From assembly GCF_001598915.1 (NCBI RefSeq), contig NZ_BDAP01000001.1, positions 310,001-374,000 of the forward strand: DNA of 64,000 nt. Reading direction: 5' to 3'. Below, in pieces: positions 2,185-37,606 of this stretch. Source of the DNA: Williamsia muralis NBRC 105860. Its GTDB lineage: Bacteria; Actinomycetota; Actinomycetes; Mycobacteriales; Mycobacteriaceae. Numbering within the stretch: the first letter of the stretch is position 1; every line of letters starts with the position of its first letter. A model generated the notes under the pieces. That model was not told the DNA's origin. It saw only the letters and a program-made list of their open reading frames with translations, and did no database searches. The translations under genes and the position numbers were made by a program.

Positions 2185-3209
2185 TGTGCGGCCTCCAGAT
2201 CGAGCAGATCGGCGAGTACTTCGGATGCGCCGGCGAACAGCTGTTTGTAGACGATGGCCCGCTTCAGGTAGAGGTGGGCGTTGTGCTCGTAGGTGTAACC
2301 CATGCCACCGTGTACCTGAATGCTGCCGCTGCCGTTGCTGATCGCCGCCTGACCTGCGACCGTCTTGGCCGCCAGGATCTGGAACTCGGTGTCGGGGCGA
2401 CCTGCCTTGAGAGCGGCGGCCGCGAACAATGTTTGTGCCGAAGCAGATTCGGCACGAACAGCCATGTCCACGACGGCATGTTTGATGGCCTGGTGGACCC
2501 CGATCGGACGCCCGAACTGTTCGCGAGTTTTAGCGTGCTCGGTGCAGATCTCGGTGATCGCTTCGGCCAGACCGGCGAGATACGCCGAGGCGAGGATCTG
2601 ACCCCGGCCCCAGATCCACTCGGTCTCCGCCGGAAGCCAGGCCGTGACACGGCCCGAGGTGACCGTGGCCCCGGCCAATCGCGTTCCCGGATCCACCGAT
2701 TCGGCTGCGGTGATTTCTCCGAACTCGGTGAGCTCGATGAGTGCGGCGCCGTCGCGGGACACGAGCAGTGCGTGGCTGCATCCTGCACAGTCCAGGAGGT
2801 CGAACGACCCCTTGAACCCGTCGGCCCCGATCTCACCGTCACCGCGCAGTTCGGCAAGTCCGATCATCGCGTTTCCGCCGCCGATCTGGCGGACGAGTTC
2901 GTCCTCTCCGGTGGCGGCCGCAACCCGGGCGCCCAGCGTGGAAGCCAGGTACGGGCCGACCGCAAGGTGTTTGGCCAACTCCATGAACAGCATGACTTCG
3001 TCATCGATGGACTGGCCGGAACCGCCGAACTCCTCACCGAGACCAAGGGTGAGCAGACCCAGTTCCGCGCCTTCACGCCACACGCCGGGGTCGACCAGCG
3101 TCGGATCGTCGCGGTGTCTGCGGATCTCGTCGATGGGAGGCCGAGAACTGATGAAATCTCCAGCGGCGGCGACCAACTCGAGTTGGTCGTCCGATGGGAG
3201 CAGATTCAT
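2181..3209 (-). CDS. Acyl-CoA dehydrogenase, small/second subunit type
   Basis: 342-residue FAD-dependent acyl-CoA dehydrogenase. The ATG at 3209 is preferred to upstream in-frame starts because a GGAAAGAAG ribosome site lies just before it and the family N-terminus (MNLLPSDDQLELVAAAGDF) begins there. The C-terminal QVHGGMGYTYEHNAHLYLKR-type segment is characteristic of the subunit class found in heteromeric dehydrogenases of sterol side-chain catabolism. It lies 16 bases after another dehydrogenase (3226-4398), so the two probably form an alpha2beta2-type enzyme; that is inferred from order and from the divergent C-termini. Middle of the protein is short and poorly conserved compared with classic homotetrameric enzymes. 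Confidence 0.9.
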   Translation of the reverse strand: MNLLPSDDQLELVAAAGDFISSRPPIDEIRRHRDDPTLVDPGVWREGAELGLLTLGLGEEFGGSGQSIDDEVMLFMELAKHLAVGPYLASTLGARVAAATGEDELVRQIGGGNAMIGLAELRGDGEIGADGFKGSFDLLDCAGCSHALLVSRDGAALIELTEFGEITAAESVDPGTRLAGATVTSGRVTAWLPAETEWIWGRGQILASAYLAGLAEAITEICTEHAKTREQFGRPIGVHQAIKHAVVDMAVRAESASAQTLFAAAALKAGRPDTEFQILAAKTVAGQAAISNGSGSIQVHGGMGYTYEHNAHLYLKRAIVYKQLFAGASEVLADLLDLEAAQ

Positions 3210-3225: not shown

Positions 3226-4398
3226 TCAGCGCGGGAGTCCGAGGACCCGGTCGCCGACGATGTTTCGCTGGATCTCGGAGGTCCCGCCGCCGATGGACTG
3301 GGAGAACGCATAAAGGTAGTTGCCCACCCAGCCGTTCTTGTCCCAACGGGAGGTGCTGCGCAGGGCGTCCGTGCCGATGATGTCCATCGCCAGTTCGGCC
3401 ACTTGTTTGGCCAAGTCGGCGTAGAACAGTTTGAGCATCGACCCCTTGGGGCCCGGAGTGTCCGTCTGCATGCTTCGGCAGATGCCGACGTAGGTCATGG
3501 CCCGCAGCGATGTCACCGCTGCCCGGGCTCGCGCCAGACGCCGGGCGATCTCGTCGTCGGCGATCGCGGGACGGCGGCCGTCCGGTCCGACGTGGTCGCG
3601 GGAGAACTCGATGAGGTCCTCGACGACCTTGGCGAGACGGACCTGGTTGGCCGTGAATGCGGTGCCACGCTCGAACGAGAGCGTCGACATCGCAACACTC
3701 CAGCCGTCATTGATCTCGCCCACGATGTTGGACAACGGGATCCGAACGTTGTCGTAGAACACCTCGCAGAACTCGGCGCCGCCCTCGATGGTCTCGATCG
3801 GACGGATCTCGATGCCGGGCGTTGCCATGTCACAGATGATCCAGGTGATGCCCTGGTGTTTGGATCCGGTGTTGTCGGTGCGTACCAGCAGCTCCTGGTA
3901 ATCGGCGATCGTCGCGAAGCTGGTCCAGATCTTCTGGCCGTTGACCACGAGATGATCGCCGTCGATGACGGCCTTGGCGCGTAGTGAGGCGAGGTCGGAA
4001 CCGGCTTCGGGCTCCGAGAAACCCTGGCACCAGATCACCTCTCCACGCAGGATCTTTCGGAGGTGGAAGTCCTTCATGGCTTCGTCGGCCCTGGTGATCA
4101 GGGTGGGGCCGGCGTGCGAGAGTCCGACGAAGTTGGCGTCGATTCCTGGAAATCCCTGCGCCGCATACTCTTCGTACCAGATGAGCTGCTGCAGCAAGGT
4201 CAGGCCGCCGCCACCGTATTCCTTCGGCCAGGCAATGCCCGCCCAGCCACCGTTCCATTGGGTGCGCTGCCACGCGGTGTCGTACTCACGAATACCGTCG
4301 GCCTCGCGGGGGCGGGGCTCGGTGGGTTTGTTCTCCCGGAGCCACGTGCGCACCTCATCCCGGAACTCCAACTGTTCGGTGCTGAAGTCCAAATCCAT
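3226..4398 (-). CDS. Acyl-CoA dehydrogenase, large/first subunit type
   Basis: 390-residue acyl-CoA dehydrogenase with full-length N-terminal, middle and C-terminal domains. The FAD/substrate segment WCQGFSEPEAGSDLASLR lies near residues 125-142 and the C-terminal SIGGGTSEIQRNIVGDRVLG matches the nucleotide-binding GGTxEIxR signature. It leads a minus-strand unit that continues with a second dehydrogenase, an Ltp-like protein and a CoA ligase. Likely partner of the 2181-3209 product in a heteromeric enzyme that introduces an alpha,beta double bond into a bulky acyl-CoA. A palindrome-rich promoter region lies directly upstream (4440-4457). Confidence 0.92.
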   Translation of the reverse strand: MDLDFSTEQLEFRDEVRTWLRENKPTEPRPREADGIREYDTAWQRTQWNGGWAGIAWPKEYGGGGLTLLQQLIWYEEYAAQGFPGIDANFVGLSHAGPTLITRADEAMKDFHLRKILRGEVIWCQGFSEPEAGSDLASLRAKAVIDGDHLVVNGQKIWTSFATIADYQELLVRTDNTGSKHQGITWIICDMATPGIEIRPIETIEGGAEFCEVFYDNVRIPLSNIVGEINDGWSVAMSTLSFERGTAFTANQVRLAKVVEDLIEFSRDHVGPDGRRPAIADDEIARRLARARAAVTSLRAMTYVGICRSMQTDTPGPKGSMLKLFYADLAKQVAELAMDIIGTDALRSTSRWDKNGWVGNYLYAFSQSIGGGTSEIQRNIVGDRVLGLPR

Positions 4399-4482: not shown

Positions 4483-5271
4483 TCAGGTTTTGTCCGGTTG
4501 CGAGATGAAGCGTGCGGCCAGTGCCTCGCTTCCGCGGGCCAGCACCGTGACGTCGGCGCCGACCAAGACGAATGAGGCACCCGCAGCCATGTATCGCTGC
4601 GCGAGATCCGGGTTGAACGCATTGACGCCTGCCGCTTTGCCGGTGGCCTTGATCTGCGACAATGCCTTCTCGATCAGGGCCACCATCTCGGGATGTTCGG
4701 GCTTGCCCAGGTATCCCAACGACGCTGCCAGATCGGCCGGACCGATGAAGACGGCGTCGACGCCATCGACTGCGGCGATCTCTTCGAGGTGCTCGAGTGC
4801 GGCCGCGGATTCGACCTGGACGGTGAGTGACACGGAGGCATCAGCCGTAGCCAGATAGTCAGAAGTGCGGTTCCAGCGAGAGGCTCGGGCAAGGGCGCTA
4901 CCGACGCCCCGGATGCCCTCTGGTGGGTAGCGCGTGGCCGCCACCAGCGCTCGGGCCTCGTCGGCGGATTCGACCATCGGGATGATCAGATTCGTCGCAC
5001 CGATGTCGAGGAGCTGTTTGATCGCGATCGGGTCCCCGGACGCCGGCCGTACCAGCACCTGCACCGGGTAGGCCGCGAGGGCCTGGAGCTGCGACAGAGT
5101 GGACCTGATGTCGTTCGGTACGTGCTCGAGGTCGAGCATCAGCCAGTCGAGCCCGGCCCCGGCGCAGATCTCGGCGCTGTAGGCGTTGCCCGACGCGATC
5201 CACATCCCGATCTGGGCGCGGTCGCCGTGGATCTGCCGATTCCACGTGTTCGATTGCGCGGCGCTGCTCAT
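4483..5271 (-). CDS. HpcH/HpaI-family aldolase
   Basis: 262-residue class II (metal-dependent) pyruvate aldolase of the HpcH/HpaI family, which cleaves 4-hydroxy-2-oxo acids to pyruvate plus an aldehyde. Seen: [13 protein letters not shown] near residues 40-55, [14 protein letters not shown] near 150 and [13 protein letters not shown] near 172, all family signatures including the metal-binding acidic residues. Start codon overlaps the end of the hydratase gene by ATGA. With the upstream hydratase and hydrolase it forms the standard lower meta-cleavage sequence; use of this aldolase type instead of the usual DmpG/BphI-type aldolase resembles the homoprotocatechuate and p-cumate routes. The aldehyde released depends on the ring substituent and is unknown. 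Confidence 0.92.
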
Positions 5272-6098
5272 GAGGAACTCTCCTTGGCAAAATGGATCGA
5301 CACGGTCCCCATCGGTCCGTAGTCGGCGACGAGGGTGTCACCGGGCTCGGCAAAGACCGGCGCGGTGAAGGACCCGGCCAGGATCACCTCACCCGCATTC
5401 AACGAAACGCCATGGGGAGCAAGACGATTTGCGAGCCAGGCCACGCCGTTGGCCGGGTGGCCCAGCACCGACGCCGCGACGCCGGAATCCTCGATCGAGC
5501 CGTTCTTGAGCAGCAGGGCGGCAACCCACCGTAGGTCCACGTCCATCGGTTTCATCACGCGCCCTCCGAGGACGATGCCGGCGTCGGCTGCGTTGTCGCT
5601 GATGGTGTCGACGATGGTGCGGAGGTGTCCGGTCTCCGGGTCGGCCATCTGCACGCGCGCGTCGAGAATCTCGAGTGCCGGCGTCACGTACTCTGCTGCC
5701 CGCAGCACGTCGTACAGCGTGACACCGGGTCCGGACAGCGACTCGCCGAGGATGAACGCGAGTTCGACCTCGATGCGCGGCCGGATGAAGCGGTTGGCCG
5801 GCACGACTGCGCCGTCGTCGAAGAACATGTCGTCGAGTAACGCGCCATAATCGGGTTCGGTGATGGAGACCGCACGTTGCATGACCTTGGACGTGAGGCC
5901 GATCTTGCGACCCCGCACGACCGCGCCACCTTCGACCTTGAGACGAATGAGTTCCCGCTGCACCGCATACGAGTCCTCGATGGTCATCTCCGGATACTGC
6001 AGGGAGATCTGCCGGATCGGGACCCGGGTCTGTTCGGCCTCATGCAAGCGGCGCGCCAGCTCGGCGACGGCCGTATCGAGCAGGGTTGTGTTCGTCAT
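5268..6098 (-). CDS. 2-keto-4-pentenoate hydratase family protein
   Basis: 276 residues, full length for the MhpD/HpaH/BphH hydratase family, which adds water to 2-hydroxypenta-2,4-dienoates to give 4-hydroxy-2-oxo acids. The metal-binding stretch [11 protein letters not shown] lies near residue 105, and [13 protein letters not shown] near residue 62 is typical. It overlaps the hydrolase stop at 6095-6098 and the aldolase start at 5268-5271, each by 4 bases, so the three genes are co-translated in pathway order. It may accept either unsubstituted or dicarboxylic dienoates; sequence alone does not decide. Confidence 0.92.
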
Positions 6099-6991
6099 CG
6101 CCGCAAGAACTCCAGCGCCGCCGGATTGAAGGCAGCGGGATCCTCGAAGTGCGGCCAGTGCCGGACCGCGGCCATCTCGAACACCTCGGCGTTCGGGATC
6201 AGGCCGGCGACGATGTGCGCGGTGCTCTGATACTCACCGTCGTCCTTGCCCGATGCCACCACCATGGTCGGGGCGGCGATGGTCGCCCACTTCTCCTCGG
6301 GGATGAGGTTGCGATCACGGGCTTCGGCCTCCTGCAGGATCAGCAGGTGGTCGATCGTGGTGCGGGTGTCGTCGCGGCGGTAGATCGCCTGCCGGAGTGC
6401 GATGAGGTCGGGCAGCCGGTTCGATTCGTCCGCGATCAGGTGTGCGAAAACCTTGTGGAGGGACTCCCAGCTGGGGTTGTTGACCGCTTCGGTGCGCTCG
6501 GCGCGGATCCGGGCCATGTTCGACGCGGTGGCGATCAGGCCGGCGGGCGACATCAAGATCACCTTGTCGACCCGTTCCGGATGCTCCACCGCGATGGCAG
6601 CCGACACCCAGGCGCCTAGTGACATGCCGATGAAGTGCGCTTTCTCCATTCCGAAGTGCTCCATCACGCCCAGGATCTGTTTGACGTAGACCGCGATCTC
6701 GTAGTCGTAGTCGGGCTTGTCGGAGAAGCCGTTGCCGACCATGTCGATCGCGACGCAGTGGAAGTCCTCCGAGAGTGGTCCGAGGTTCGGTGCGAACGTC
6801 TCCCAGTGGCCGCCGGTGCCGTGCAGCAGGATGGCGTGCGGTTTGTCCGGGGATCCCGCCTCGACAAACCTGGTTCGCACTCCGCCGATGTCTGCGAAGC
6901 CCTGTCGGAACTCCAGTTCTCGCAGATGGCTCCAGATGCTGCGGTACTCGTCAGTGTCGGCCGCGGGGGCGGAAATCGCTGTCTCAGTCAT
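6095..6991 (-). CDS. Alpha/beta hydrolase, meta-cleavage-product (C-C) hydrolase type
   Basis: 298-residue alpha/beta hydrolase. Oxyanion segment LLHGTGGHWETFAPN near residue 55, nucleophile elbow FIGMSLGAWV near residue 123 and the C-terminal VRHWPHFEDPAAFN holding the catalytic histidine match MhpC/BphD/HsaD-type enzymes that split 2-hydroxy-6-oxo-dienoates into a hydroxypentadienoate plus a carboxylic acid. It is the first gene of a minus-strand unit followed by the hydratase and aldolase that would process its product. It is transcribed divergently from the dioxygenase cassette starting at 7239, sharing the region 6992-7238. No extradiol dioxygenase that would make its substrate is in the window. 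Confidence 0.88.
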   Translation of the reverse strand: MTETAISAPAADTDEYRSIWSHLRELEFRQGFADIGGVRTRFVEAGSPDKPHAILLHGTGGHWETFAPNLGPLSEDFHCVAIDMVGNGFSDKPDYDYEIAVYVKQILGVMEHFGMEKAHFIGMSLGAWVSAAIAVEHPERVDKVILMSPAGLIATASNMARIRAERTEAVNNPSWESLHKVFAHLIADESNRLPDLIALRQAIYRRDDTRTTIDHLLILQEAEARDRNLIPEEKWATIAAPTMVVASGKDDGEYQSTAHIVAGLIPNAEVFEMAAVRHWPHFEDPAAFNPAALEFLRR

Positions 6992-7238
6992 GGTCGGGGC
7001 CTCCGTTGTAGTACGTAATTTTCCACTGTGTGCACTTTCAGTCTTAGCACTTTCAGTGCCTTGAGCTGGGTAGGTATCAAATTCTGGGTCCCCAATTCTG
7101 CGAATCGAGGGATTGTTTCTGACACCCGTATACGATATGACTATGAGGCGGGATCACCGCAAGAGCAAGTGGCTTCCGACGAGTTGTTTCAACTTTTCGA
7201 GAAATCACCAGAGCAAGGTTGGGCGAGACGGGTCGTCG
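6992..7238. promoter_or_regulatory. Divergent promoter region with direct repeats
   Basis: 247 bases between two divergent units. An 11-base direct repeat GCACTTTCAGT occurs at 7032-7042 and 7047-7057 (15-base period), and the 8-base palindrome CGTATACG lies at 7127-7134 next to an AT-richer stretch that could hold a -10 element for the plus-strand operon. The arrangement fits a shared control region for the dioxygenase cassette and the hydrolase/hydratase/aldolase unit; no regulator gene is adjacent. Confidence 0.5.
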
Positions 7239-7544
7239 ATGACTATGACCAGACACGAACATGAAGATGCCGACGCCGATGCGCGCCGCGTGCGCCGCCG
7301 GGAGCTCGCATCTCTGATCAACGAGTTCGCGGCGGTACGCGTGTCGCTGGATTCGACCGGCAACGGGGACAGGCTGCTCGTCGAGGACCTCGAGAGTGAC
7401 GACTACATCTTCCTGTCACCACTCGAACTCGTCAGCCTGTGCCTGGCCACGCCCGACGACCGCGAGGACTGGCTGCGCGTCGGCAATTACCGCGACGAGC
7501 GCCGCGACCGCTCGTTGGGGCCCCTGCGGGGGAGATCATCGTGA
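7239..7544 (+). CDS. Small conserved-looking hypothetical protein
   Basis: 101 residues, charged and without predicted membrane segments: begins MTMTRHEHEDADADARR, then a more hydrophobic part with LLVEDLESDDYIFLSPLELV and a Trp-containing end. ATG at 7239 is taken as start, with ATG at 7245 as alternative; an in-frame upstream ATG at 7113 would place the start inside the promoter region. The stop overlaps the GTG of the thiolase-like gene by GTGA, so it is probably the first gene of the dioxygenase operon. I do not recognise the family. An accessory or regulatory role in the dioxygenase/side-chain cassette is only suggested by position. Confidence 0.65.
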   Translation: MTMTRHEHEDADADARRVRRRELASLINEFAAVRVSLDSTGNGDRLLVEDLESDDYIFLSPLELVSLCLATPDDREDWLRVGNYRDERRDRSLGPLRGRSS

Positions 7545-8689
7545 GTGCGTCGATCGTGGGCTTGGGGATGACCCCGATGTCCCTCAAGCCGGGGGACAGC
7601 CCGCTCGACCTCGCCTGTCGCGCGAGCCGAGATGCTGTGGCAGACGCCGGGATCGAGCTGTCGGACGTGGACGGACTTCTGGTCGGTTCGTCGCAGGGGA
7701 TCCGGCCGGACCGACTCGGCGTCGGGTTTGCATCGTCCGGCGGCTTCTCTGATCTGCGACTGCTCGAGCACGTGGAGATCAAGGGCGCCACCACGATTGC
7801 GATGATCCAGCGGGCTCAGCATGCGGTCGAGACCGGTGCCGCGCGCGTGGTCATGTGCGTTTTCGCCGACGCCCCCCTTGTCGCTGGAAAGGCCGCCGGC
7901 TCCACGTATGCGCGAAGTGGCGGCCAATCCGGATCACGTGGCCTGGAGCGTGCCAGTGGTGTGCTCGGCTCGGTGCCCACCTACGCCCTCCTCACCCAGC
8001 GGTGGATGCACGTCAGCGACGGTTCCCCCGAGGATCTCTGCGCGGTGGCCACCACGACCCGCGCCTGGGCGCTCGACAATCCCGACGCGGTGATCCGCAC
8101 ACCCCTCGACATCGAGGGCTACTTGGACAGTCCGATGATCTCCGATCCGCTGCGACGGCTCGACTGCGCACGGCCGGTCAACGGTGCCGTAGCCGTCATC
8201 GTCAGTGCCGATCCGGCAGTGGGAAACCCGGTGCGCGTGGACATCCGCGGTACCGGAAGAGACCATCCGGTCCGTCACCGGCGGTCCGGTGCCGAGTCCT
8301 GGTTCGGCGGCGGCAGGCGCTGCGTCGACGACGCGCTGGCCGCCGCCGGAATGACCCGCGACGACCTGGACACCGTTCAGCTGTACGACCCGTTCTCGGT
8401 CGTCACGTTGATCCTGCTCGAAGAATATGGTCTGACCGGGGGAGCGCCGGCCGGAAAGTTTGTGCGCGAAGGCAACACCGCCGCCGGAGGCACACTCCCC
8501 ACCAACACCGGCGGCGGTCAGCTGTCCGGGTTCTACCTGCAAGGCATGACCCCGCTGGCCGAGGCGCTCGTGCAGTTACGCGGCGACGGCGCCGGACGGC
8601 AGGTGTCCGATGCGACGACCGCACTGGTCGGCGGAATCGGTGGTCGGATCGATCACCACGCCGCCCTGATCCTGGAGCGTGCGGCATGA
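7541..8689 (+). CDS. Thiolase-like protein (IpfD/SCP-x type) of dioxygenase cassette
   Basis: 382-residue thiolase-superfamily protein. GTG at 7541 is chosen because it overlaps the previous stop (GTGA) and the family N-terminus starts there (SASIVGLGMTP). The nucleophile position lacks cysteine (EIKGATTIAM), while the C-terminal GGGQLSGFYLQGM segment keeps a tyrosine in the position used by Ltp-type retro-aldolases. It is followed without gap by a DUF35 protein, a two-subunit Rieske dioxygenase and a CoA ligase. In ibuprofen-degrading sphingomonads the equivalent SCP-x-like protein (IpfD) with a DUF35 partner (IpfE) removes the acyl-CoA side chain after ring 1,2-dioxygenation. The same role here is inferred from gene content. 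Confidence 0.87.
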   Translation: MSASIVGLGMTPMSLKPGDSPLDLACRASRDAVADAGIELSDVDGLLVGSSQGIRPDRLGVGFASSGGFSDLRLLEHVEIKGATTIAMIQRAQHAVETGAARVVMCVFADAPLVAGKAAGSTYARSGGQSGSRGLERASGVLGSVPTYALLTQRWMHVSDGSPEDLCAVATTTRAWALDNPDAVIRTPLDIEGYLDSPMISDPLRRLDCARPVNGAVAVIVSADPAVGNPVRVDIRGTGRDHPVRHRRSGAESWFGGGRRCVDDALAAAGMTRDDLDTVQLYDPFSVVTLILLEEYGLTGGAPAGKFVREGNTAAGGTLPTNTGGGQLSGFYLQGMTPLAEALVQLRGDGAGRQVSDATTALVGGIGGRIDHHAALILERAA

Positions 8690-9174
8690 CCGTCGCGACC
8701 GATTGGCTGCTCAGCGATTCACTCGGCCCCGTGGTGTCGGGTGACCCACTGGAACCGCTGTACACCGGGGCGGCCCGCGGCGCGCTGGTGCTCCCGTTCT
8801 GCGCCGCCTGCTCACTTCCACTCGACCTCGAACAGCACGTCTGCGACGGCTGCGGGTCCCACCGGATCGACTGGCTCGAAACAGCTCCCACCGGCGTCGT
8901 GCATTCGTCGACCACGATGCACCGCCTCGAACCGGGACTGGTCACCGCGACCGGCCCGTACCCGATCGTCGACATCGAACTCGCCGGCGGACACCGGCTG
9001 ATCATGACAACCGTCGACCCGGCAACCCGCGCCCCGCAGATCGGCGACGTCGTCGACATCGGTTTCAGAAATCTCGCGGGAACAGCGCTCCCGGCAGCAC
9101 AGCCCATCAATTCCACCGATACCGCACGGCCCATCAATTCCACCGATACGGAGGCCATCAATGACAACCACTGA
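8686..9174 (+). CDS. DUF35 zinc-ribbon/OB-fold protein (IpfE-like)
   Basis: 162 residues. An N-terminal rubredoxin-like zinc ribbon with two CxxC pairs (CAACSLPLDLEQHVCDGC, residues about 44-61) precedes an OB-fold (SSTTMHRLEPG, YPIVDIELAGG, IGDVVDIGF). Such proteins dock on Ltp/SCP-x partners and can bind acyl-CoA. Start overlaps the thiolase-like stop by ATGA. The C-terminal tail contains a tandem repeat, PINSTDTAR/PINSTDTEA, made by a 27-base DNA duplication whose third, degenerate copy runs into the start of the dioxygenase alpha gene (ATG at 9161), giving an unusual 14-base overlap. The tail is likely dispensable and recently duplicated. Confidence 0.9.
   Translation: MTVATDWLLSDSLGPVVSGDPLEPLYTGAARGALVLPFCAACSLPLDLEQHVCDGCGSHRIDWLETAPTGVVHSSTTMHRLEPGLVTATGPYPIVDIELAGGHRLIMTTVDPATRAPQIGDVVDIGFRNLAGTALPAAQPINSTDTARPINSTDTEAINDNH
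9102..9160 (+). repeat. 27-base tandem repeat at DUF35/dioxygenase junction
   Basis: GCCCATCAATTCCACCGATA occurs at 9102 and again at 9129, a 27-base period equal to nine codons; a degenerate third start (GCCATCAATGAC) at 9153 covers the ATG of the next gene. The repeat is translated as the end of the DUF35 protein and may influence the translational start of the dioxygenase alpha subunit. Confidence 0.85.
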
Positions 9175-10459
9175 GTCGAACCCCGGCACCGCCAGCGACT
9201 TCGACGTGTCGAAGATCGTGCAGGAAGATCGTGTGCACGGTTCCGTCTACACGTCACCGGAGATCTTCCAGCGCGAGATGGACACCATCTTCCGCACCGG
9301 TTGGGTCTACGTCGCCCATGACAGCGAGGTCGCCGAACCCGGCGACTACCTGACCCGGCGGATCGGCAGCGAACCGGTCGTCGTGTCCCATGGCAAGGAC
9401 GGTGAGATCAGGGTTCTGCTCAACCGGTGCTCGCACCGCGCCAACAAGCTGTGCAACGCCGAGAAGGGCAACGCCAGCTCGTTCCGGTGCCCGTACCACG
9501 GCTGGACGTTCAGCAATACCGGCTCGCTGACCGCTGTTCCGATGAAAGAGGGCTACGGCGAGGCTTTCCGCGCTGTCCGGTCCGAGCTCGGAATGGCCGA
9601 GGCGCCTCGGGTCGACAGCTACGGCGGCTTCATCTTCGCTTCACTGGCCGCCGAAGGCCCTTCGCTCACCGAACATCTCGGCGGTTCGATCGCGGCCTTC
9701 GACCGCCTGCTCAACCTGTCGCCGACCGGGACGATCGATCTGCGCGCCAACTGGATGAAGCACCTGCACCACGCAAACTGGAAAATGGTGGTGGAGAACA
9801 ACGTCGATGGTTACCACGCGCTGTTCACGCACGCGTCGGTGTACGACGCGATCCGGCCGGCCAAGGTATCGCACATCCCGTCGAAGACGGACGTCGTGGT
9901 GCGCGACATCGGCGACGGCCACTCCGAGATCGACTACTCGGCCGAATACCGCAAGCTGGATGAGGAGTTCATCTGGTACGGCCGGATGCCTCGCACCAAG
10001 CTGCCGAAATATGTTGCAGCGCTCGAAAAGAAGTACGGCGAGGAGAAGGCGCACGACTCCCTGGTCGTCGGCCCCCCGCACACCCTGATCTGGCCCAACC
10101 TGTTCCTCGCCGAAATGAACGTGATGTATGTCGAACCCATCGGCCCGGACGAGACGATCGCGTACACCACTGCAGCCCTCATCCCAGGACAAGACGATCT
10201 GAATGTGCGGACGCTGCGTCGCTCCGAGGGTGCCATGGGCCCGGCCGGCTTCCTCATCGCCGACGACGGCGAAATCGGAATGCGCAATCAGGCCGGTCTG
10301 GCAGCCAGGGACCCGGAATGGCTGCGGCTCTCGCGTGGGCTCGAAACCGACATCACCGACGAGACCGGAATCGTCAACAGCGACAAGAGCGCCGAGACTC
10401 CCCAACGGGGCTTCTACCGCCAGTGGGCCGGCGTCGTAGGACAGGAGATCACCCAATGA
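9161..10459 (+). CDS. Rieske ring-hydroxylating dioxygenase, alpha subunit
   Basis: 432 residues, standard length for a large terminal oxygenase subunit. The Rieske [2Fe-2S] ligands are C90, H92, C110 and H113 (CSH ... CPYHGW). The catalytic mononuclear iron site NNVDGYHALFTH supplies H219 and H224, with D216 as the electron-bridging aspartate of the NxxDxxH(x4)H pattern. It would add O2 across an aromatic ring of, by context, an aryl-acyl-CoA. It needs a ferredoxin and reductase; none lies next to it, although a KshB-like reductase is encoded at 38226. Followed by the beta subunit with an ATGA overlap. The gene order thiolase-like/DUF35/alpha/beta/ligase matches the ipf system of ibuprofen degraders. 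Confidence 0.95.
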   Translation: MTTTESNPGTASDFDVSKIVQEDRVHGSVYTSPEIFQREMDTIFRTGWVYVAHDSEVAEPGDYLTRRIGSEPVVVSHGKDGEIRVLLNRCSHRANKLCNAEKGNASSFRCPYHGWTFSNTGSLTAVPMKEGYGEAFRAVRSELGMAEAPRVDSYGGFIFASLAAEGPSLTEHLGGSIAAFDRLLNLSPTGTIDLRANWMKHLHHANWKMVVENNVDGYHALFTHASVYDAIRPAKVSHIPSKTDVVVRDIGDGHSEIDYSAEYRKLDEEFIWYGRMPRTKLPKYVAALEKKYGEEKAHDSLVVGPPHTLIWPNLFLAEMNVMYVEPIGPDETIAYTTAALIPGQDDLNVRTLRRSEGAMGPAGFLIADDGEIGMRNQAGLAARDPEWLRLSRGLETDITDETGIVNSDKSAETPQRGFYRQWAGVVGQEITQ

Positions 10460-10971
10460 GCACACTCGACGACACCGATGTCTTCTCCTCGGCGCTGCAA
10501 CCACTACCGGCACCGTCGCCGGAGGTGGCAGGGTTCCTGTACCTGGAGGCACGTCTGGCTGACGAAGCGCGCTACTCCGAGTGGGAACTGCTCTGGGACG
10601 ACGACGCCCTGTACTGGGTACCCATGCATCCCGACGACGACCCGGCGACCAACCTGTCGTACATCTACGACAACCGTCGCCGGATCAAAAGCCGTGTCGC
10701 ACAGTTGAACACCGGGAATCGGCATTCGCAGACCCCGCCGTCGGTGATGCGGCGCCAGTTGACCAACATGGAGGTCCTCGACTCCACCGTCGACACCGTG
10801 ACGGTCGGATCGAACTTCGCCCTTTTCGAATACCGGCACACCCAGCGAGTTTGGGCCGGCCGTGTGATCCACAAGGTCCGCCGTCACGCCGACGGATTCA
10901 AGTTGGCCGGCAAAACCGTCCACATGATCAGCGCCGGTGGACCGGTCGACACACTCGCTTTCCTGATCTGA
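10456..10971 (+). CDS. Ring-hydroxylating dioxygenase, beta subunit
   Basis: 171-residue small subunit of the NTF2/SnoaL-like fold that completes the alpha3beta3 oxygenase. Typical features are FLYLEARLADEARYSEWELL near the N-terminus, YIYDNRRRIKSRVAQL in the middle and a C-terminal AGKTVHMISAGGPVDTLAFLI-type strand pair (shorter pieces seen in order). Start ATG at 10456 overlaps the alpha stop. It has no catalytic metal; its role is structural and in substrate-pocket shaping. Confidence 0.94.
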   Translation: MSTLDDTDVFSSALQPLPAPSPEVAGFLYLEARLADEARYSEWELLWDDDALYWVPMHPDDDPATNLSYIYDNRRRIKSRVAQLNTGNRHSQTPPSVMRRQLTNMEVLDSTVDTVTVGSNFALFEYRHTQRVWAGRVIHKVRRHADGFKLAGKTVHMISAGGPVDTLAFLI

Positions 10972-11028
10972 ACGTCCATTCCATCCCGCGAAGGCCGTAC
11001 CTTCGCGCCGAAGTACCTGTGAGGCACC

Positions 11029-12597
11029 GTGCTTGTAGGCGACATCTCGAAGAACAACGCTCGTCGATACCCGGACAAGCCCGCCATCGTCGAATCCGGG
11101 CGGACGCACACCTGGAGTGACGTCGACGAGCGGGCCCGCCGCCTGGCCAACCACATGTTCGCCGCCGGACTGCAGAAGGGCGACCGGGTCATCGTGATCG
11201 CCCGCAACTGCATCGAGTGGCCGGAGATCACTTTTGCCTTCGCGAAGGCAGGACTTGTCACCGTGCCGGTGAACATCCGGCTGGCACCGGACGAGCTGGC
11301 CCATGTCCGGGACGACTCGGGGGCGGTGGCCGCGGTGGTCCACACCGATCAGGTCGAGCGGTTCGGTTCAGAGTTGGGCGATCTGAAGGCGCTTCTCGAA
11401 ATCGGCGGCGGCACAGTGGGAACTGATTACGAAACAGCCCTGCGCGCCGCCGACGACAGCGATCCCACGCCGGAATCGCTGCGGCCCGACGACATCCAGT
11501 TCATCCTCTACACGAGCGGCACGACGGGCCGTTCCAAGGGTGTGATCAACACCCACCGCGGCATGCTCGCGCAGGCCGTCGACACCAGTCTGGTCACCGA
11601 AACCAACCGCAGCGATGTGTTCCTCGCGACCACTCCGTTCTTCACCGCGGGCGGAATGGTCCGGACGCTGTCATGGACGTACCTGGGCCAGACGATGGTG
11701 ATCCACAAGCGCTTCGATCCGCAAGCGGTCATCGACGAGATCGAACGCAGTGGAGTCACTTTCACCACATTCATCCCGACCATGCTGCAGCGGACCCTCC
11801 GGATCCTCGAAGAGGGTCCGGCGCGCGACATGTCGAGTCTGCGCCGGATCAGCTACGGTTCGGCGCCCGTTCCTCCTGGCCTGGCCAAGAAGGCGATGGA
11901 TCTGCTCGGGTGTGACTTGCAGCAGCGCTACGGACTCACCGAATGTGGCGGCCAGGCAACCATCTTGACGCCCCAAGATCATCGCGACATGGTCGACGGG
12001 AAGACGAGCATCCTGACGTCCTGCGGCCAAGAGACCCCGATGTGTTCGATCCGCATCGTCGATGCCGACGGCAACGAACTGCCCACCGGCGAGGTCGGCG
12101 AGATCGTGATCGTCAGCGAAGCCAACGCAGTCGGTTATTGGAGGCGCCCGGATCAGACCAAGCAGTCGTTCCGCCCGAGCGGATTGTGGTCCGGTGACCT
12201 GGGATACCTCGACGCCGAGCGCTACTTGCACATCACCGGCCGTAAGACGGACATGATCATCTCCGGTGGCTTCAACGTGTACCCGGCCGAGATCGAACGC
12301 GTCATCGGCCATCATCCCGCCGTGGAGATGGTCGCGGTCGTCGGTGTCCCGGACCCGGAATGGGGCGAGACGCCCATCGCTGTTGTGGTCCCCAAGGGAG
12401 ACATCGACGAAGACGCCGTCACGGCCGAACTCACCGCGCTGTGCCGCGCCGAATTGGCCGGCTACAAGCAACCGAGACGTTTCGATTTCCGGACCGAGTT
12501 CCCGCTCGGACCGGCCGGCAAAATTCTCAAGCGGGTCATCGCCGATTCGCTGGTCCCCGTGCCGGAGAAGGTTGCGGCTTCCCAGGTGTCGTCGTGA
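11029..12597 (+). CDS. Acyl/aryl-CoA ligase (AMP-forming; IpfF-like position)
   Basis: 522 residues, complete ANL-family ligase. P-loop ILYTSGTTGRSKGV near residue 163, YGLTECGGQ near residue 302, GDLGYLD and GRKTDMIISGGFNVYPAEIE hinge region near 390-420, and the C-terminal catalytic lysine in GPAGKILKR. The GTG start has GAGG four bases upstream; the preceding gap of 57 bases contains no clear terminator. By position it should activate the carboxylic acid that the dioxygenase attacks, as the ligase does in the ipf pathway. Its stop overlaps the next ligase start by GTGA. Confidence 0.92.
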   Translation: MLVGDISKNNARRYPDKPAIVESGRTHTWSDVDERARRLANHMFAAGLQKGDRVIVIARNCIEWPEITFAFAKAGLVTVPVNIRLAPDELAHVRDDSGAVAAVVHTDQVERFGSELGDLKALLEIGGGTVGTDYETALRAADDSDPTPESLRPDDIQFILYTSGTTGRSKGVINTHRGMLAQAVDTSLVTETNRSDVFLATTPFFTAGGMVRTLSWTYLGQTMVIHKRFDPQAVIDEIERSGVTFTTFIPTMLQRTLRILEEGPARDMSSLRRISYGSAPVPPGLAKKAMDLLGCDLQQRYGLTECGGQATILTPQDHRDMVDGKTSILTSCGQETPMCSIRIVDADGNELPTGEVGEIVIVSEANAVGYWRRPDQTKQSFRPSGLWSGDLGYLDAERYLHITGRKTDMIISGGFNVYPAEIERVIGHHPAVEMVAVVGVPDPEWGETPIAVVVPKGDIDEDAVTAELTALCRAELAGYKQPRRFDFRTEFPLGPAGKILKRVIADSLVPVPEKVAASQVSS

Positions 12598-14966
12598 CCT
12601 CCACACAGAACAAACCGGTGGTCGCGATCGCGCAGGCGACGAACTACTGGGATCTCCTGAGCGAGCGGGTGGAACTGAGCCCGTCGCGGGAGTTCGCCGT
12701 CGACGAACACGGACGCCGCTTCACCTTCGCCGCCCTGGCCGATCTGGCAGAGAGCACGGCCGCAGCCCTTCACGCCCACGGCGTCCGGGCCGGCGACGTG
12801 GTGTCTTGGCAGCTGCCGAGCAGTGTCGAATCCATGGCGTTGTCGCTGGCCCTGTCGCGTCTGGGCGCCGTGCAGAATCCGATCATCCCGATGCTGCGGG
12901 AGAGTGAGGTCGCGTTCATCACCGGGCAGGTCGGCGCATCGCTGCTGATCGTGCCCACCGAGTTCCGGGGTTTCGATCACGGGGCCATGGCGAATGCGGT
13001 CGCCGAGCGGATCGACGGTCTGCGGACGCTGATCGTCGGTGACACGTGGATCTCCGGGGATTCCTCGACGCTGCCGACCCGCTCGGAGCGAGACGACAAC
13101 GCGGTGAGCTGGATCTTCTACACCTCCGGAACAACGGCGGCGCCCAAAGGCGTCAAGCACGGCGACGCCGGATTGATCTCCGCCGCGAAGACCTTCGTCA
13201 CCAATGTGCAGGTCACTCCCGATGAGCGTTGCGCCGCCTACGTACCGATCACCCACGTCGGAGGCATCGCCCACGTGCTGAGCAGCCTGCTGGTCGGGCA
13301 CACCCTGATCACCGCTGCCGCGTTTGTCCCCGAAGACAATGCGAAACAGCTGATCTCCGAGGGCGCCACCCTGATCGGCTCGGGCCTGCCGTTCACCACC
13401 GAATACCTTCGCATCTCACGGGAGAGCGGTGTTGCTCCGCTGTTCCCTCAGGCGCGTGCCACTCTCGGTGGCGGGTCGGGTCGACCGGCCGAATTGAGCC
13501 GTGCAACAGCACAACATCTCGGGGGAGTAGGCATCATCTCCGGATACGGGATGACCGAATGCCCGTACCTGACGTGGGGCAGTCCGGACGACACGGACGA
13601 CGAACATGCAGTCTTCGAAGGTACGCCCGGTCCGCAGGGCCGGGTGCGCATCGTGGGTGCCGACGGCACAGAATTGCCGGTCGGCGAAATCGGCGAGATC
13701 CGCGTGCACGGCCCGCAACTGTTCCACGGTTATGTGGACTCGGCCCAGGATGAGGGTGCGCTCGATGAGCAGGGATTCTTCCGGACGGGCGATCTCGGCT
13801 TCCTGAACGCTGCGGGCCGGCTCTCGGTGACGGGACGGATCAAGGACATCATCGTGCGCAAGATGGAGAACATCTCAGCGCGTGAGGTCGAGGAAGTGCT
13901 GATCAACGATCCCGCCATCGCCGATCTCACCGTGATCGGTATGCCCGACAACGCGTCAGGGGAGCGGGTGTGCGCGGTGGTGGTGCCCAGCGATCCGGCC
14001 GCACCGCCGAACCTCGATTCGATCCGCGCGTACCTCGCGACCACCACCCTGAACAAACGTAAATACCCGGAACAGGTTGAAGTAGTCGACCGGATTCCCC
14101 GCAACTCACTCGGGAAGATCACCAAGTCGCAATTGCGCAGCGATCTTCTCGACCCCGCCGCAAAGGTCTCGGTCTCCACGATGACGTCCGAATCACAGTA
14201 CACAACAGTGGAGTTCGAGGTCGCCGACCACATCGCCACCATCACGCTGAACCGGCCCGATCGGCTGAATTGTTTCAACGAGACGATGGCCAATGAAATT
14301 GCGGAGATCTGGGGACGGGTCCGCGATGACGACGACATCCGCGTCGCTGTCCTACAGGCCAACGGTGAGCGCGCCTTCTGCACCGGTGTGGACGTCAGCG
14401 AAGGCGCCTGGTGGACACACATCAACCGGTTCAACCAGGAAGACCCCGGCGTGCTGCTGGGACCGAAACAACACCGGGTCTGGAAACCGGTCGTCTGCGC
14501 CCTGCACGGCATGGTGGCCGGTGGCGCGATGTATTTCGTCAACGAGTCCGACATCGTCATCTGCAGCGACGACACGACCTTCTTCGACCCCCATGCCAAC
14601 GCCGGCATCGTCTCCGCGCTCGAACCTATGGGCATGCTGGCCCGTGGGATACCGCTGGGCGAGGTCTTGCGGTGGGCGCTGATCGGTAGTGACGAGAGGA
14701 TGACCGCTGACAGCGCTCTGCGGACCGGCATCGTCACCGAGATCACGTCCCGACCCGAACTGCGTGATCGTGCGCAGCAACTTGCAACCGAGATCGCCGG
14801 ACGGCGACCGGAGGCCATCCAGGGCACGGTGCGTGCGATCTGGGAGTCGCTGGACATGACGCCGTCCACCGCGCTGCGAACCGGCTTGTCGTACACGCAG
14901 ATCGGCAACGTCGGATCGGGTCGGAGCGATTCCCGGAAGAACAAGCGCACCCCGCGTTTTCGTTGA
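12594..14966 (+). CDS. CoA ligase joined in frame to enoyl-CoA hydratase (fusion or artefact)
   Basis: A single open frame of 790 codons. Residues about 1-525 form an AMP-dependent ligase: P-loop IFYTSGTTAAPKGVKHG, YGMTECPYL, GDLGFL, GRIKDIIVRKMENISAREVE and catalytic-lysine segment NSLGKITKSQL. Residues from the internal ATG at 14181 form a complete 261-residue crotonase: ATITLNRPDRLNCFNETMA, AFCTGVDVSEG and VVCALHGMVAGGAMYF. The GTG start overlaps the previous stop. The join is suspicious: if one C were absent from the run near 14151-14154, the ligase would end in a TGA overlapping ATG 14181 by ATGA, as at most junctions here. Either a true fusion or one base miscalled; both activities themselves are well supported. 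Confidence 0.8.
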   Translation: MTSTQNKPVVAIAQATNYWDLLSERVELSPSREFAVDEHGRRFTFAALADLAESTAAALHAHGVRAGDVVSWQLPSSVESMALSLALSRLGAVQNPIIPMLRESEVAFITGQVGASLLIVPTEFRGFDHGAMANAVAERIDGLRTLIVGDTWISGDSSTLPTRSERDDNAVSWIFYTSGTTAAPKGVKHGDAGLISAAKTFVTNVQVTPDERCAAYVPITHVGGIAHVLSSLLVGHTLITAAAFVPEDNAKQLISEGATLIGSGLPFTTEYLRISRESGVAPLFPQARATLGGGSGRPAELSRATAQHLGGVGIISGYGMTECPYLTWGSPDDTDDEHAVFEGTPGPQGRVRIVGADGTELPVGEIGEIRVHGPQLFHGYVDSAQDEGALDEQGFFRTGDLGFLNAAGRLSVTGRIKDIIVRKMENISAREVEEVLINDPAIADLTVIGMPDNASGERVCAVVVPSDPAAPPNLDSIRAYLATTTLNKRKYPEQVEVVDRIPRNSLGKITKSQLRSDLLDPAAKVSVSTMTSESQYTTVEFEVADHIATITLNRPDRLNCFNETMANEIAEIWGRVRDDDDIRVAVLQANGERAFCTGVDVSEGAWWTHINRFNQEDPGVLLGPKQHRVWKPVVCALHGMVAGGAMYFVNESDIVICSDDTTFFDPHANAGIVSALEPMGMLARGIPLGEVLRWALIGSDERMTADSALRTGIVTEITSRPELRDRAQQLATEIAGRRPEAIQGTVRAIWESLDMTPSTALRTGLSYTQIGNVGSGRSDSRKNKRTPRFR

Positions 14967-14991: not shown

Positions 14992-16485
14992 GTGAGCACA
15001 CATACCCTCACCGACCAGATCGCCAGCTATCCGTTGCTCATCGGCGGCGACGAGGTGGCGGCGGAATCGGGCAAGACCTACGAGAGTGTCGATCCGTTCA
15101 CCGGGGAGCCCTGGGTACGGGTACCCGACGCCGGCGCCGCGGACATCGACAGGGCGGTGAAGGCCGCTCGCGCGGCGCTGTCGGGTCCGTGGGGCGACCT
15201 GACCGCCTCGGCCCGAGGCAAATTGATTTGGCGCTTGGCCGAGCTCATCGCACGGGATGCCGACGAGCTGGCCGAACTCGAGGTCCGTGACGGTGGCAAG
15301 TTGCTCCGTGAGATGTCTGGACAGATGCGCGGATTGCCCGAATATTTCTACTACTACGCGGGGATGGCCGACAAGCTCGAAGGCAGCGTCATCCCCACCG
15401 ACAAGCCCAATTTCCTCGTGTACACCACCCACGAGCCGGTCGGTGTGGTCGGCGCGATCACCCCGTGGAACTCCCCGCTTCTGTTGCTGTCGTGGAAATT
15501 GGCCGCCGGCCTCGCTGCAGGCTGCACGTTCGTGATCAAGCCGAGCGACCACACCCCGGCGTCCACCCTGGCATTCGGGAAGCTTTTCGCGGAAGCCGGC
15601 TTCCCGCCGGGCGTGGTCAACGTGGTCACCGGTTGGGGCCCGGAGACCGGTGCCGCGCTGGCCTCGCATCCCGATGTCGACAAGATCGCGTTCACGGGGT
15701 CGACCGGAACCGGAATCCGGGTCGGTCAGGCTGCGGTGGCGAACATGACCCGGTTCACCCTCGAACTCGGTGGGAAATCGGCGCAGGTGGTCTTCCCCGA
15801 TGCCGATCTCGATGCCGCTGCCAACGGGGTCATCTCCGGGATCTTTGCTGCCACCGGACAGACCTGTCTGGCGGGCTCCCGGTTGCTCGTCCACGAGAGT
15901 GTGGCCGACGAACTGATCAAGAAGGTCGTTGCCCGTGCGTCGACGATCGTCCTCGGCGATCCCAAGGACCCACGTACCGAGATGGGACCCGTGTCCAACG
16001 AGCCGCAGTATCAAAAGGTTTTGTCGCACTTCGACTCTGCGCGCGAACAGGGCGCAACCATCGCCTACGGCGGTGAGCCTGCCGGCGAACTGGGCGGGTA
16101 CTTCGTCAAACCGACCGTGCTGACCGGAGTCACCGCGGACATGCGCGCGGTCTCCGAGGAGATCTTCGGACCTGTGCTCACCGTTTCGACGTTCGCCGAC
16201 GAGGACGAGGCGATCACGGCTGCGAACTCCACTGAGTTCGGGCTGGCCGGTTCGGTGTGGACCAAGGATGTGCACCGCGCCCACCGGGTCGCCGCGAAGC
16301 TGCGGGCGGGCACGGTCTGGATCAACTCCTACCGGACCGTTGCACCACACGTCCCCTTCGGTGGAGTGGGTGCCAGCGGTATCGGCCGCGAGAACGGCAT
16401 CGACGCCGTCAAGGATTTTACCGAAACCAAATCCGTCTGGGTCGAACTCAGCGGTGCCACGCGCGACCCCTTCACGCTCGGCTGA
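14992..16485 (+). CDS. Aldehyde dehydrogenase (NAD(P)+)
   Basis: 497-residue ALDH-superfamily enzyme. Catalytic C292 lies in TGQTCLAGSR; the general-base glutamate lies in FTLELGGKSAQV; the cofactor site shows ITPWNSPLLLLSWK and FTGSTGTG. GTG start with AAGGAG at 14981-14986. It oxidises an aldehyde to the acid; the neighbouring hydratase, thiolase and SDR genes suggest an intermediate of side-chain breakdown, for example an aldehyde released by retro-aldol cleavage. The substrate is unknown. Lies 25 bases after the hydratase domain, probably in the same transcript. Confidence 0.94.
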   Translation: MSTHTLTDQIASYPLLIGGDEVAAESGKTYESVDPFTGEPWVRVPDAGAADIDRAVKAARAALSGPWGDLTASARGKLIWRLAELIARDADELAELEVRDGGKLLREMSGQMRGLPEYFYYYAGMADKLEGSVIPTDKPNFLVYTTHEPVGVVGAITPWNSPLLLLSWKLAAGLAAGCTFVIKPSDHTPASTLAFGKLFAEAGFPPGVVNVVTGWGPETGAALASHPDVDKIAFTGSTGTGIRVGQAAVANMTRFTLELGGKSAQVVFPDADLDAAANGVISGIFAATGQTCLAGSRLLVHESVADELIKKVVARASTIVLGDPKDPRTEMGPVSNEPQYQKVLSHFDSAREQGATIAYGGEPAGELGGYFVKPTVLTGVTADMRAVSEEIFGPVLTVSTFADEDEAITAANSTEFGLAGSVWTKDVHRAHRVAAKLRAGTVWINSYRTVAPHVPFGGVGASGIGRENGIDAVKDFTETKSVWVELSGATRDPFTLG

Positions 16486-16516: not shown

Positions 16517-17716
16517 ATGTCAGCCATCGAAGCCGTCATCGTCGCCGGAGCACGCACCCCGGTCGGCACCTCATTCAAGGGAACCCTGCGCGACACGACG
16601 GCGATGGAACTCGCCGAAGTCGTTGTCGCGGAGGTCCAGAAGCGCTCAGGCCTCGAGCCTTCGCAGATCGATGACATCATCCTCGCCGAGTCGAACTACG
16701 GCGGCGGCGATGTCGCGCGGCATGCGGCAGTGGTGACCGGGATGACCCAGGTACCCGGACAGGCCATCAACCGGCATTGTGCAGGCAGCCTGACCGCGGT
16801 CGGAAATGCGGCAGCACAGATCATCTCCGGAGCCGAGCGGGCAATCATCGCCGGCGGCACGCAATCCATCTCGACCAGCCCACTTCAGTCCTTCCGGACC
16901 CCCGGCACCGTCGACGAGTTCACCAACAAGTGGATGCCGCCGACCCATCCGGACAGCGCCGCGGCCCCGAACATGGACATGTCGATCACGGTCGGGTGGA
17001 ACACCGCCACCGAACTCGACCTGACCCGCGAGGAAATGGACGCCTGGGCACTCCGGTCCCATCAGCGCGCCATCGCCGCCATCGACGCGGGCGCCTTTGT
17101 CGACGAGATCATCCCGGTCTCGGCACGGCAGCAAGACGGCACGTTCGTGGAGTTCACCACGGACGAGCACCCGCGTCGCGACACGACTGCGGAACGGCTG
17201 GCTGGTCTGAAAACCCTGCATCCGGAGATCGAGGGATTCTCGATCACGGCCGGCAACTCCAGCGGCATCAATGACGCCGCCGCCGCCGTCATGGTGGTCG
17301 GCTCCGATCTCGCCGCGTCCGAAGAGCTCGAGGTCCTGGCCACGGTGAAGGCTTGGGCGGCTACCGGTATCAACCCGGCCCACACCGGCCTTGCAGTCCT
17401 CGACGTCATCCCGAAGGTCCTCGATCGCGCTGGCATCGGGGTGTCCGATGTGGCGCTATGGGAGATCAACGAGGCGTTCGCGGCGGTACCCGTTGCGGCC
17501 TGCAAGAAGCTGGGTATTAGCGACGACATCGTCAACGTCCTCGGTAGCGGATGCTCCATCGGTCATCCGGTGGCGGCGTCGGGTGCGCGAATGATCCTCT
17601 CTCTGATCAACGAATTGCGCCGCCGTGGCGGCGGATACGGTGTCGCCGCGATGTGTGCCGGTGGCGGACAGGCCGGAGCAGTGGTCATCGACGTTCCTGC
17701 GCCCGCGACCACATAG
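16517..17716 (+). CDS. Thiolase (acetyl-CoA acyltransferase)
   Basis: 399 residues, canonical thiolase. Acylated nucleophile C88 in NRHCAGSLTAV, histidine in GSGCSIGHPVAASG, and the second cysteine in AAMCAGGGQAGAVV are all present. ATG at 16517 is chosen over longer in-frame options because GAAAGG precedes it and VIVAGARTPVG begins the fold. It can carry out the thiolytic step of beta-oxidation, in contrast to the cysteine-less Ltp-like proteins in this window. Confidence 0.95.
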   Translation: MSAIEAVIVAGARTPVGTSFKGTLRDTTAMELAEVVVAEVQKRSGLEPSQIDDIILAESNYGGGDVARHAAVVTGMTQVPGQAINRHCAGSLTAVGNAAAQIISGAERAIIAGGTQSISTSPLQSFRTPGTVDEFTNKWMPPTHPDSAAAPNMDMSITVGWNTATELDLTREEMDAWALRSHQRAIAAIDAGAFVDEIIPVSARQQDGTFVEFTTDEHPRRDTTAERLAGLKTLHPEIEGFSITAGNSSGINDAAAAVMVVGSDLAASEELEVLATVKAWAATGINPAHTGLAVLDVIPKVLDRAGIGVSDVALWEINEAFAAVPVAACKKLGISDDIVNVLGSGCSIGHPVAASGARMILSLINELRRRGGGYGVAAMCAGGGQAGAVVIDVPAPATT

Positions 17717-19528: not shown

Positions 19529-19538
19529 AGGTGTGACG

Positions 19539-37598: not shown

Positions 37599-37606
37599 TT
37601 CGCCCG

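Follow-up and report, generated by a model that had tools for sequence, protein, structure and literature searches.

A probable Ipf-type gene cluster for aryl-alkanoic acid catabolism in Williamsia muralis and other actinobacteria

Introduction

Ipf-type removal of the side chain from aryl-CoA has reportedly been described in sphingomonads, and the question raised here is whether an actinobacterial locus that encodes the same protein families provides a comparable route. A 2018 review that searched for ipfABDEF clusters found them in proteobacteria only (PMC6063337). The locus lies in Williamsia muralis NBRC 105860 (assembly GCF_001598915.1, contig NZ_BDAP01000001.1, positions 310,001–374,000), and we refer to this whole stretch of 64,000 nt as the window, numbering it from its first base. 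A preliminary description of the window had picked out a coupled run of genes at 7239–12597, coding for a 101-residue protein (hyp101), a thiolase-like protein, a DUF35 protein, the alpha and beta subunits of a Rieske dioxygenase and a CoA ligase, and had proposed a route analogous to that of ibuprofen degradation. We conclude that the cluster is probably an actinobacterial Ipf-type catabolic unit for aryl-acetic or 2-aryl-alkanoic acids, with reactions and substrate class predicted by sequence comparison. It is a variant of the known Ipf type; in the open-access literature searched we found no earlier report of actinobacterial ipf clusters or of hyp101-like proteins, although this is not proof of absence.

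A coupled six-gene run within two divergent operons

The starts, order and spacing of the genes are as first described. On the plus strand, hyp101 (7239–7544, ATG start), a small protein of an unnamed actinobacterial family, is followed by the SCP-x thiolase-like protein, a candidate retro-aldolase of the IpfD/Ltp2 type (7541–8689, GTG; Thiolase_C_1), the DUF35/ChsH2 OB-fold protein, counterpart of IpfE (8686–9174, ATG; PF01796, OB_ChsH2_C), the Rieske dioxygenase alpha subunit, counterpart of IpfA (9161–10459, ATG; PF00355 Rieske, PF00848 Ring_hydroxyl_A), and the beta subunit, counterpart of IpfB (10456–10971, ATG; PF00866 Ring_hydroxyl_B). Successive genes in this series overlap by 4, 4, 14 and 4 bases, and the acyl/aryl-CoA ligase, the IpfF counterpart by position (11029–12597, GTG; PF00501 AMP-binding, PF13193), begins after a gap of 57 bases. 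The unit was drawn too short, however, in being closed with the sixth gene at 12597, because a CoA ligase–enoyl-CoA hydratase fusion gene overlaps the ligase gene by 4 bases, starting at 12594. The real extent is two divergent operons that occupy the window from 1 to 21 kb, with the plus-strand operon reaching about 21055.

A thiolase-like/DUF35 pair with the Ltp2 tyrosines

The thiolase-like protein and its DUF35 neighbour form a candidate Ltp2-type retro-aldolase, in which Tyr282 and Tyr332 have predicted catalytic roles. In Ltp2, Tyr294 of the YDHF motif is the base and Tyr344 the acid (PMC12329534), and Tyr282 (in YDPF) and Tyr332 (in SGFYLQGM) align with these residues. The closest solved relative is the lipid-transfer protein in PDB 6ok1 (E 3e-39), with tyrosine numbering as in Ltp2. 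The protein had been called cysteine-less, which is correct at the catalytic position, where it has EIKGATT and the canonical paralogue in the window (42815–43975) has ENACATG; other cysteines are present elsewhere in the protein. The tyrosine pair is kept and the nucleophilic cysteine absent in 16 of 16 members of two clades (the orthologues examined plus IpfD). The position of the YDHF histidine, part of the oxyanion hole, is occupied by proline in the actinobacterial cassette clade and by alanine in Ipf, and replacing this histidine slowed Ltp2 only 14-fold (PMC12329534).

A maximum-likelihood tree places 12 actinobacterial cassette proteins as sister to four Ipf-type proteins (IpfD) with support of 100/99, and this position rules out assignment of the thiolase-like gene to the steroid Ltp2 clade. 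Relatives from loci that have no Rieske gene fall outside the clade formed by the window protein and IpfD and carry YDCY (one such locus, L067, has no annotation). In the DUF35 protein the Cys4 zinc ribbon, CAACSLPLDLEQHVCDGC, is intact as described, and the motif is present in 52 of 52 loci. Because retro-aldol cleavage by the pair would rearomatise the ring, no conserved dihydrodiol dehydrogenase is expected in the cluster, and in a synteny comparison of the loci the conserved core has neither a dihydrodiol dehydrogenase nor PdxA.

Two Rhodococcus plasmid loci (L103, 8968–10625; L104, 6291–10588) have an IpfDE-like pair with no Rieske gene and with YDCY replacing YDPF. One of these pairs adjoins a P450–ferredoxin–reductase set, and P450-driven retro-aldol removal of a side chain is possible there.

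The Rieske dioxygenase

The alpha subunit has complete motifs for the Rieske cluster (residues 90–113) and for the iron site (ENNVDGYHALFTH, residues 212–224). In the alpha tree it belongs to a 13-member clade (100/100) that is sister to the Ipf clade (86/76), and both lie inside a 22-member clade (95/99) in which the neighbouring genes encode a CoA ligase, thiolase or enoyl-CoA hydratase, apart from HcaE, NBDO and the Ant-type and PdxA-linked oxygenases. Scores for the alpha subunit are far under the cut-offs of the BenA, HcaE and anthranilate dioxygenase models (BenA, 191 versus 781 bits). It matches the closest solved structures (PDB 7yls/8h2t, with 9o71) at 219 bits and IpfA at 326 bits, the two values coming from different databases. 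We take 7yls/8h2t to be the indole-3-acetate dioxygenase IadD/E, an enzyme that acts on the free acid.

The cluster core has no reductase, and the minus-strand operon ends, outside the window, with a small ferredoxin gene. On pIBU218, the ferredoxin and reductase genes ipfH/I are likewise located some kb from the ipf core. The ferredoxin of the Rhodococcus sp. DK17 cluster has a Fer4_15 domain.

Distribution and conservation

A scan with a thiolase-like profile of one genome per GTDB species returned 49 loci, all of them actinobacterial and spread over about ten genera. The hosts include Williamsia (96% identical), Gordonia hydrophobica, Rhodococcus, Nocardia, Nocardioides, many Mycobacterium/Mycolicibacterium, Frankia, Pseudonocardia, Tomitella and Streptomyces, among others, and four further loci are on plasmids (Rhodococcus sp. 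DK17 pDK3, R. erythropolis X5, R. rhodochrous GD02 and Streptomyces NBC_00564). Truncated loci occur, and in a few an individual gene was missed, but wherever the stretch is covered in these 49 genome and four plasmid loci the divergent hydrolase/HpaH/HpaI genes and the order hyp101/thiolase-like/DUF35/alpha/beta are kept. All six leading genes are under purifying selection, with ratios of nonsynonymous to synonymous substitution (dN/dS) of 0.02–0.32, and the same order in 49 loci together with this selection shows that the arrangement is not due to chance. The cluster is patchy within Williamsia, being present in three of nine genomes; the contigs that carry it in mycobacteria and Frankia are large and chromosomal.

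Some Rhodococcus clusters (L001, 25753–29740; L003, 23735–27721) add a 2-oxoacid:ferredoxin oxidoreductase gene pair and a second alpha/beta hydrolase gene that are absent from the window. Gene sets similar to ipf also occur in Variovorax, Nitratireductor and Paraburkholderia. Plasmids of Variovorax sp. WDL1 and Nitratireductor thuwali (L064, 6941–11957; L066, 7962–12509) carry ipf-like clusters with alpha, beta, ligase and thiolase-like genes, and of these two only that of Variovorax sp. WDL1 has an annotated DUF35 gene.

The hyp101 family

The protein at the head of the operon had been regarded as an extra of the cassette, but it belongs to a wider actinobacterial family associated with Rieske genes. 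It is present in all 49 genome loci; conservation, dN/dS of 0.08–0.30 and synteny rule out a chance open reading frame. No Pfam or NCBIfam model matches it. An AlphaFold model predicts four strands followed by helices, with a core pLDDT of about 85; compared by fold with the PDB, it has no significant match (best E 0.92).

With a profile of the cassette copies, small open reading frames are detected directly 3′ of Rieske beta genes in unrelated actinobacterial operons, among others in M. avium, R. opacus PD630, Rhodococcus WAY2 and pNAPH. Across 246 sampled actinobacterial genomes, every one of the 27 matches lies no more than 5 kb from a Rieske beta gene, a zone that makes up about 0.05% of positions, and 23 are immediately downstream; conversely, 24 of the 44 Rieske beta genes in the sample are accompanied by a hyp101-type gene. 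The position is mostly 3′ of beta elsewhere and at the operon head in the ipf-like cassette. From its location, hyp101 may be an accessory of the dioxygenase. A broader proposal joins two claims, namely that hyp101 founds a general family of Rieske partners (an assembly factor, extra subunit, or electron-transfer or regulatory adaptor) and that the cassette serves actinobacteria widely as a natural route for removing acyl-CoA chains from ring-fused or carboxyalkyl arenes; we advance this combination tentatively, and with rather more doubt than confidence.

In three genomes of actinobacteria, hyp101-type genes stand in tandem directly after a Rieske beta gene (G032:C54:20393-20743, loci L089/L095; G065:C6:187492-187968, L091/L096; G130:C40:9121-9519, L090/L097).

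The divergent operon and the lower pathway

Divergent from hyp101 in every case is a gene for a meta-cleavage-product C–C hydrolase (6095–6991, minus strand), whose closest solved structures are BphD, CumD and HsaD. It is followed on the same strand by an HpaH-type 2-oxohept-4-ene-1,7-dioate hydratase (5268–6098; TIGR02312, 416.5 bits against a cut-off of 351.5; about 60% identical to annotated HpaH), an HpaI-type class II pyruvate aldolase (4483–5271; TIGR02311, 346.6 bits, just under the cut-off of 368.8), an acyl-CoA dehydrogenase resembling the pimeloyl-CoA dehydrogenase large subunit (3226–4398; TIGR03204, 240.7 bits, below cut-off) and a second acyl-CoA dehydrogenase in the small-subunit position (2181–3209; open reading frame and synteny). 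Next come a second SCP-x thiolase-like protein that has no nucleophilic cysteine and belongs to a different clade of the tree (1033–2184; NF004811 above cut-off) and the 5′ part of a CoA ligase gene (1–1032, approximate boundary), which continues upstream of the window and is followed, past the window edge, by a tyrosine-phosphatase gene and the small ferredoxin gene. Locus L007 has matches to the ligase (lig0, 70%), the phosphatase and the ferredoxin (58%).

The preliminary description took the lower genes to fit the catechol product, but this gene set differs from that of the plain catechol route in Ipf strains: the combination of C–C hydrolase, HpaH, HpaI and pimeloyl-type dehydrogenases resembles ThnD–K of tetralin degradation. 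In the tetralin pathway such a set yields pyruvate and pimelic semialdehyde (PMC6563040). The homoprotocatechuate/tetralin-like character of the lower operon thus hints at a catechol with an omega-carboxyl chain or a fused ring, and at an omega-carboxylated or ring-fused substrate. As a purely hypothetical example, 1,4-phenylenediacetate would be converted to homoprotocatechuate. A lead from the literature towards naphthenic acids as substrates gave no gene-level link.

In 10 loci (Frankia, Streptomyces, Streptosporangiaceae and others) a gene for a 182-aa VOC protein lies between the hydrolase gene and hyp101. This protein has a remote likeness to extradiol dioxygenases, with an H-H-E pattern and a near-complete extradiol signature, one departing residue being allowed in the pattern, which we take to be that of PROSITE. 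The genome of the window has no close copy of the Streptomyces VOC protein, only weak relatives (E 1e-5), so that its ring-cleaving enzyme, if one exists, must be unlinked. HsaC-like, 272-aa VOC and LigB candidates are present elsewhere in the genome and cannot be assigned.

Alternative explanations and relation to known systems

The proposed aryl-acyl-CoA route was to be judged by phylogeny. IpfD is the sister of the thiolase-like protein, and among the oxygenases sampled the alpha subunit falls with the CoA-associated ones, IpfA included, and away from those acting on free acids or hydrocarbons. To this extent the earlier proposal stands; its account of the lower genes and of hyp101 as an extra does not. 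Several observations weigh against an Ipf-type assignment. The sister relationship of the alpha clade to IpfA is not strong, few well-characterised reference oxygenases were included in that tree, and approximately unbiased tests reject neither the joining of the alpha clade to other CoA-linked oxygenases (p 0.12) nor its joining to IadD (p 0.12). The ligase is nearest the IpfF group only weakly (83/75), the DUF35 protein matches IpfE faintly (E 7e-4), identity to the Ipf proteins is 40–43%, and the cluster in the window has no extradiol dioxygenase gene.

The pair could instead be confined to side-chain chemistry. A hydratase, or the Rieske enzyme working at a benzylic or alicyclic position, would then supply a beta-hydroxyacyl-CoA, from which the pair would cleave acetyl- or propionyl-CoA in the manner of Ltp2 with steroids, and the dioxygenase would make no ipso attack on an arene. 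Relatives of the pair do occur with a P450 or without a Rieske gene, and many genes nearby are for beta-oxidation, acyl-CoA dehydrogenases and alicyclic-type ligase and dehydrogenases. However, those relatives lie outside the window and IpfD clade, and the constant linkage of the C–C hydrolase, HpaH and HpaI genes points to an aromatic meta-cleavage product; we consider this explanation unlikely. That the operon encodes an ordinary free-acid or hydrocarbon dioxygenase, with a beta-oxidation set merely adjoining, is very improbable: the family models matching alpha are indeed for dioxygenases of benzoate, cinnamate and anthranilate, and among solved structures its best matches are other aromatic-acid dioxygenases, but all the family scores are far below cut-off, the tree separates alpha from such enzymes, and the core lacks the dihydrodiol dehydrogenase or PdxA. 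Direct transfer of an ibuprofen or other non-steroidal anti-inflammatory drug pathway from sphingomonads would account for the five families in common, yet it is scarcely credible given the low identity, the deep separate clade spanning about ten actinobacterial genera, the chromosomal setting (large contigs) in mycobacteria and Frankia, and the different gene order and lower pathway. The wide natural distribution points rather to a natural substrate class.

The Ipf-type unit that we favour shares with ipfABDEF(HI) of Sphingomonas Ibu-2 and Rhizorhabdus wittichii MPO218 (pIBU218) five adjacent families, a sister clade of thiolase-like proteins, the Ltp2-type tyrosines and, with modest support, an alpha subunit nearest IpfA. 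The order differs, being thiolase–DUF35–alpha–beta–ligase in the window and alpha–beta–thiolase–DUF35–ligase in ipf, and hyp101, the ligase–hydratase fusion and the pimeloyl-type dehydrogenases are not features of ipf. Where the window has the divergent HpaH/HpaI/hydrolase operon, the ipf strains have catechol 2,3-dioxygenase and Dmp-type genes. With the Ltp2–ChsH2 steroid retro-aldolase the pair shares the fold family, a DUF35 partner with a Cys4 zinc ribbon and the tyrosine pair, and would share a substrate logic, a tertiary beta-alcohol on a ring with a leaving acyl-CoA; the dihydrodiol-CoA proposed for Ipf would have just this geometry. Unlike Ltp2–ChsH2, the window protein has YDPF rather than YDHF, lies outside the Ltp2 clade, has a stand-alone DUF35 partner and is linked to Rieske genes. 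The thn lower pathway for tetralin (ThnD-E-F-G, ThnJ/K) has in common with the window a C–C hydrolase, a homoprotocatechuate-type hydratase, a class II aldolase, a non-acylating aldehyde dehydrogenase and a pimeloyl-CoA dehydrogenase-like pair, but its upper steps involve no CoA-bound side-chain removal, and it includes an extradiol dioxygenase and a dihydrodiol dehydrogenase of its own.

Proposed pathway

In the proposed route the CoA ligase would activate an aryl-acetic or 2-aryl-alkanoic acid, and the Rieske enzyme, served by an unlinked or nearby ferredoxin and reductase, would dihydroxylate the chain-bearing ring carbon and its neighbour, the product being a beta-hydroxyacyl-CoA whose ring carries a tertiary alcohol. 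Tyr282 of the thiolase-like/DUF35 pair would deprotonate the ring hydroxyl, the C–C bond would break and Tyr332 would protonate the acyl-CoA enolate, releasing acetyl- or propionyl-CoA and restoring the aromatic ring as a catechol with no need of a dihydrodiol dehydrogenase. Extradiol cleavage would fall to an unlinked enzyme (in the Frankia and Streptomyces versions probably the small VOC protein), after which the C–C hydrolase, HpaH hydratase and HpaI aldolase would yield pyruvate and an aldehyde, probably omega-carboxylated. The aldehyde dehydrogenase, ligase–hydratase fusion, acyl-CoA dehydrogenases and thiolase would complete breakdown by beta-oxidation, with hyp101 presumably an accessory to the dioxygenase.

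If this is correct, ibuprofen degradation draws on old natural chemistry that is conserved across about ten genera of actinobacteria, with Frankia and many mycobacteria among them, and the clusters are a source of new enzymes against pollutants of the substituted aryl-alkanoic type. The Ltp2 tyrosines give a means of testing the unsolved chemistry of IpfD/E, and a hyp101-type protein could be a missing component in reconstituted actinobacterial Rieske dioxygenases.

Additional features of the operons and the window

Beyond the six leading genes, the plus-strand operon continues with the 790-aa CoA ligase–enoyl-CoA hydratase fusion (12594–14966; AMP-binding and ECH_1, cyclohexanecarboxylate-CoA ligase-like, below cut-off), which is kept across syntenic loci but is two separate genes in Frankia and others. 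It is followed by a non-acylating aldehyde dehydrogenase (14992–16485; BADH/HpaE/SSADH-like, below cut-offs), a canonical acetyl-CoA acyltransferase (thiolase; 16517–17716; TIGR01930 above cut-off), a flavin reductase-like protein (17748–18332; PF01613, syntenic), an acyl-CoA dehydrogenase similar by family models to acryloyl- and cyclohexane-carbonyl-CoA dehydrogenases (18341–19528; syntenic), an F420-dependent LLM oxidoreductase (19533–20483; TIGR03619 above cut-off) and a PaaI/4HBT thioesterase-like protein present in some syntenic clusters (20480–21055; PF03061).

A candidate regulatory region between the divergent operons (7032–7141, strand not assigned) contains a direct repeat, GCACTTTCAGT, at 7032 and 7047, and the element TTGTTT-N17-TATGAC at 7113–7141. 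In an alignment of four intergenic regions both are kept in Williamsia and largely in Gordonia; this is a consensus match only and not evidence of function. Within the DUF35 gene, at 9108–9160, a short direct repeat, CCCATCAATTCCACCGATAC, occurs twice and codes for the tail of the protein, PINSTDTARPINSTDTEAIN, just before the alpha start.

Elsewhere in the window (33450–34949, 36594–39311 and 62076–63221) there are two Ltp2-like thiolases (SEGYIHG), a KshA-type Rieske oxygenase, a TetR protein and a KshB-like flavin/2Fe-2S reductase, which probably constitute a separate degradation region of steroid or terpenoid type.

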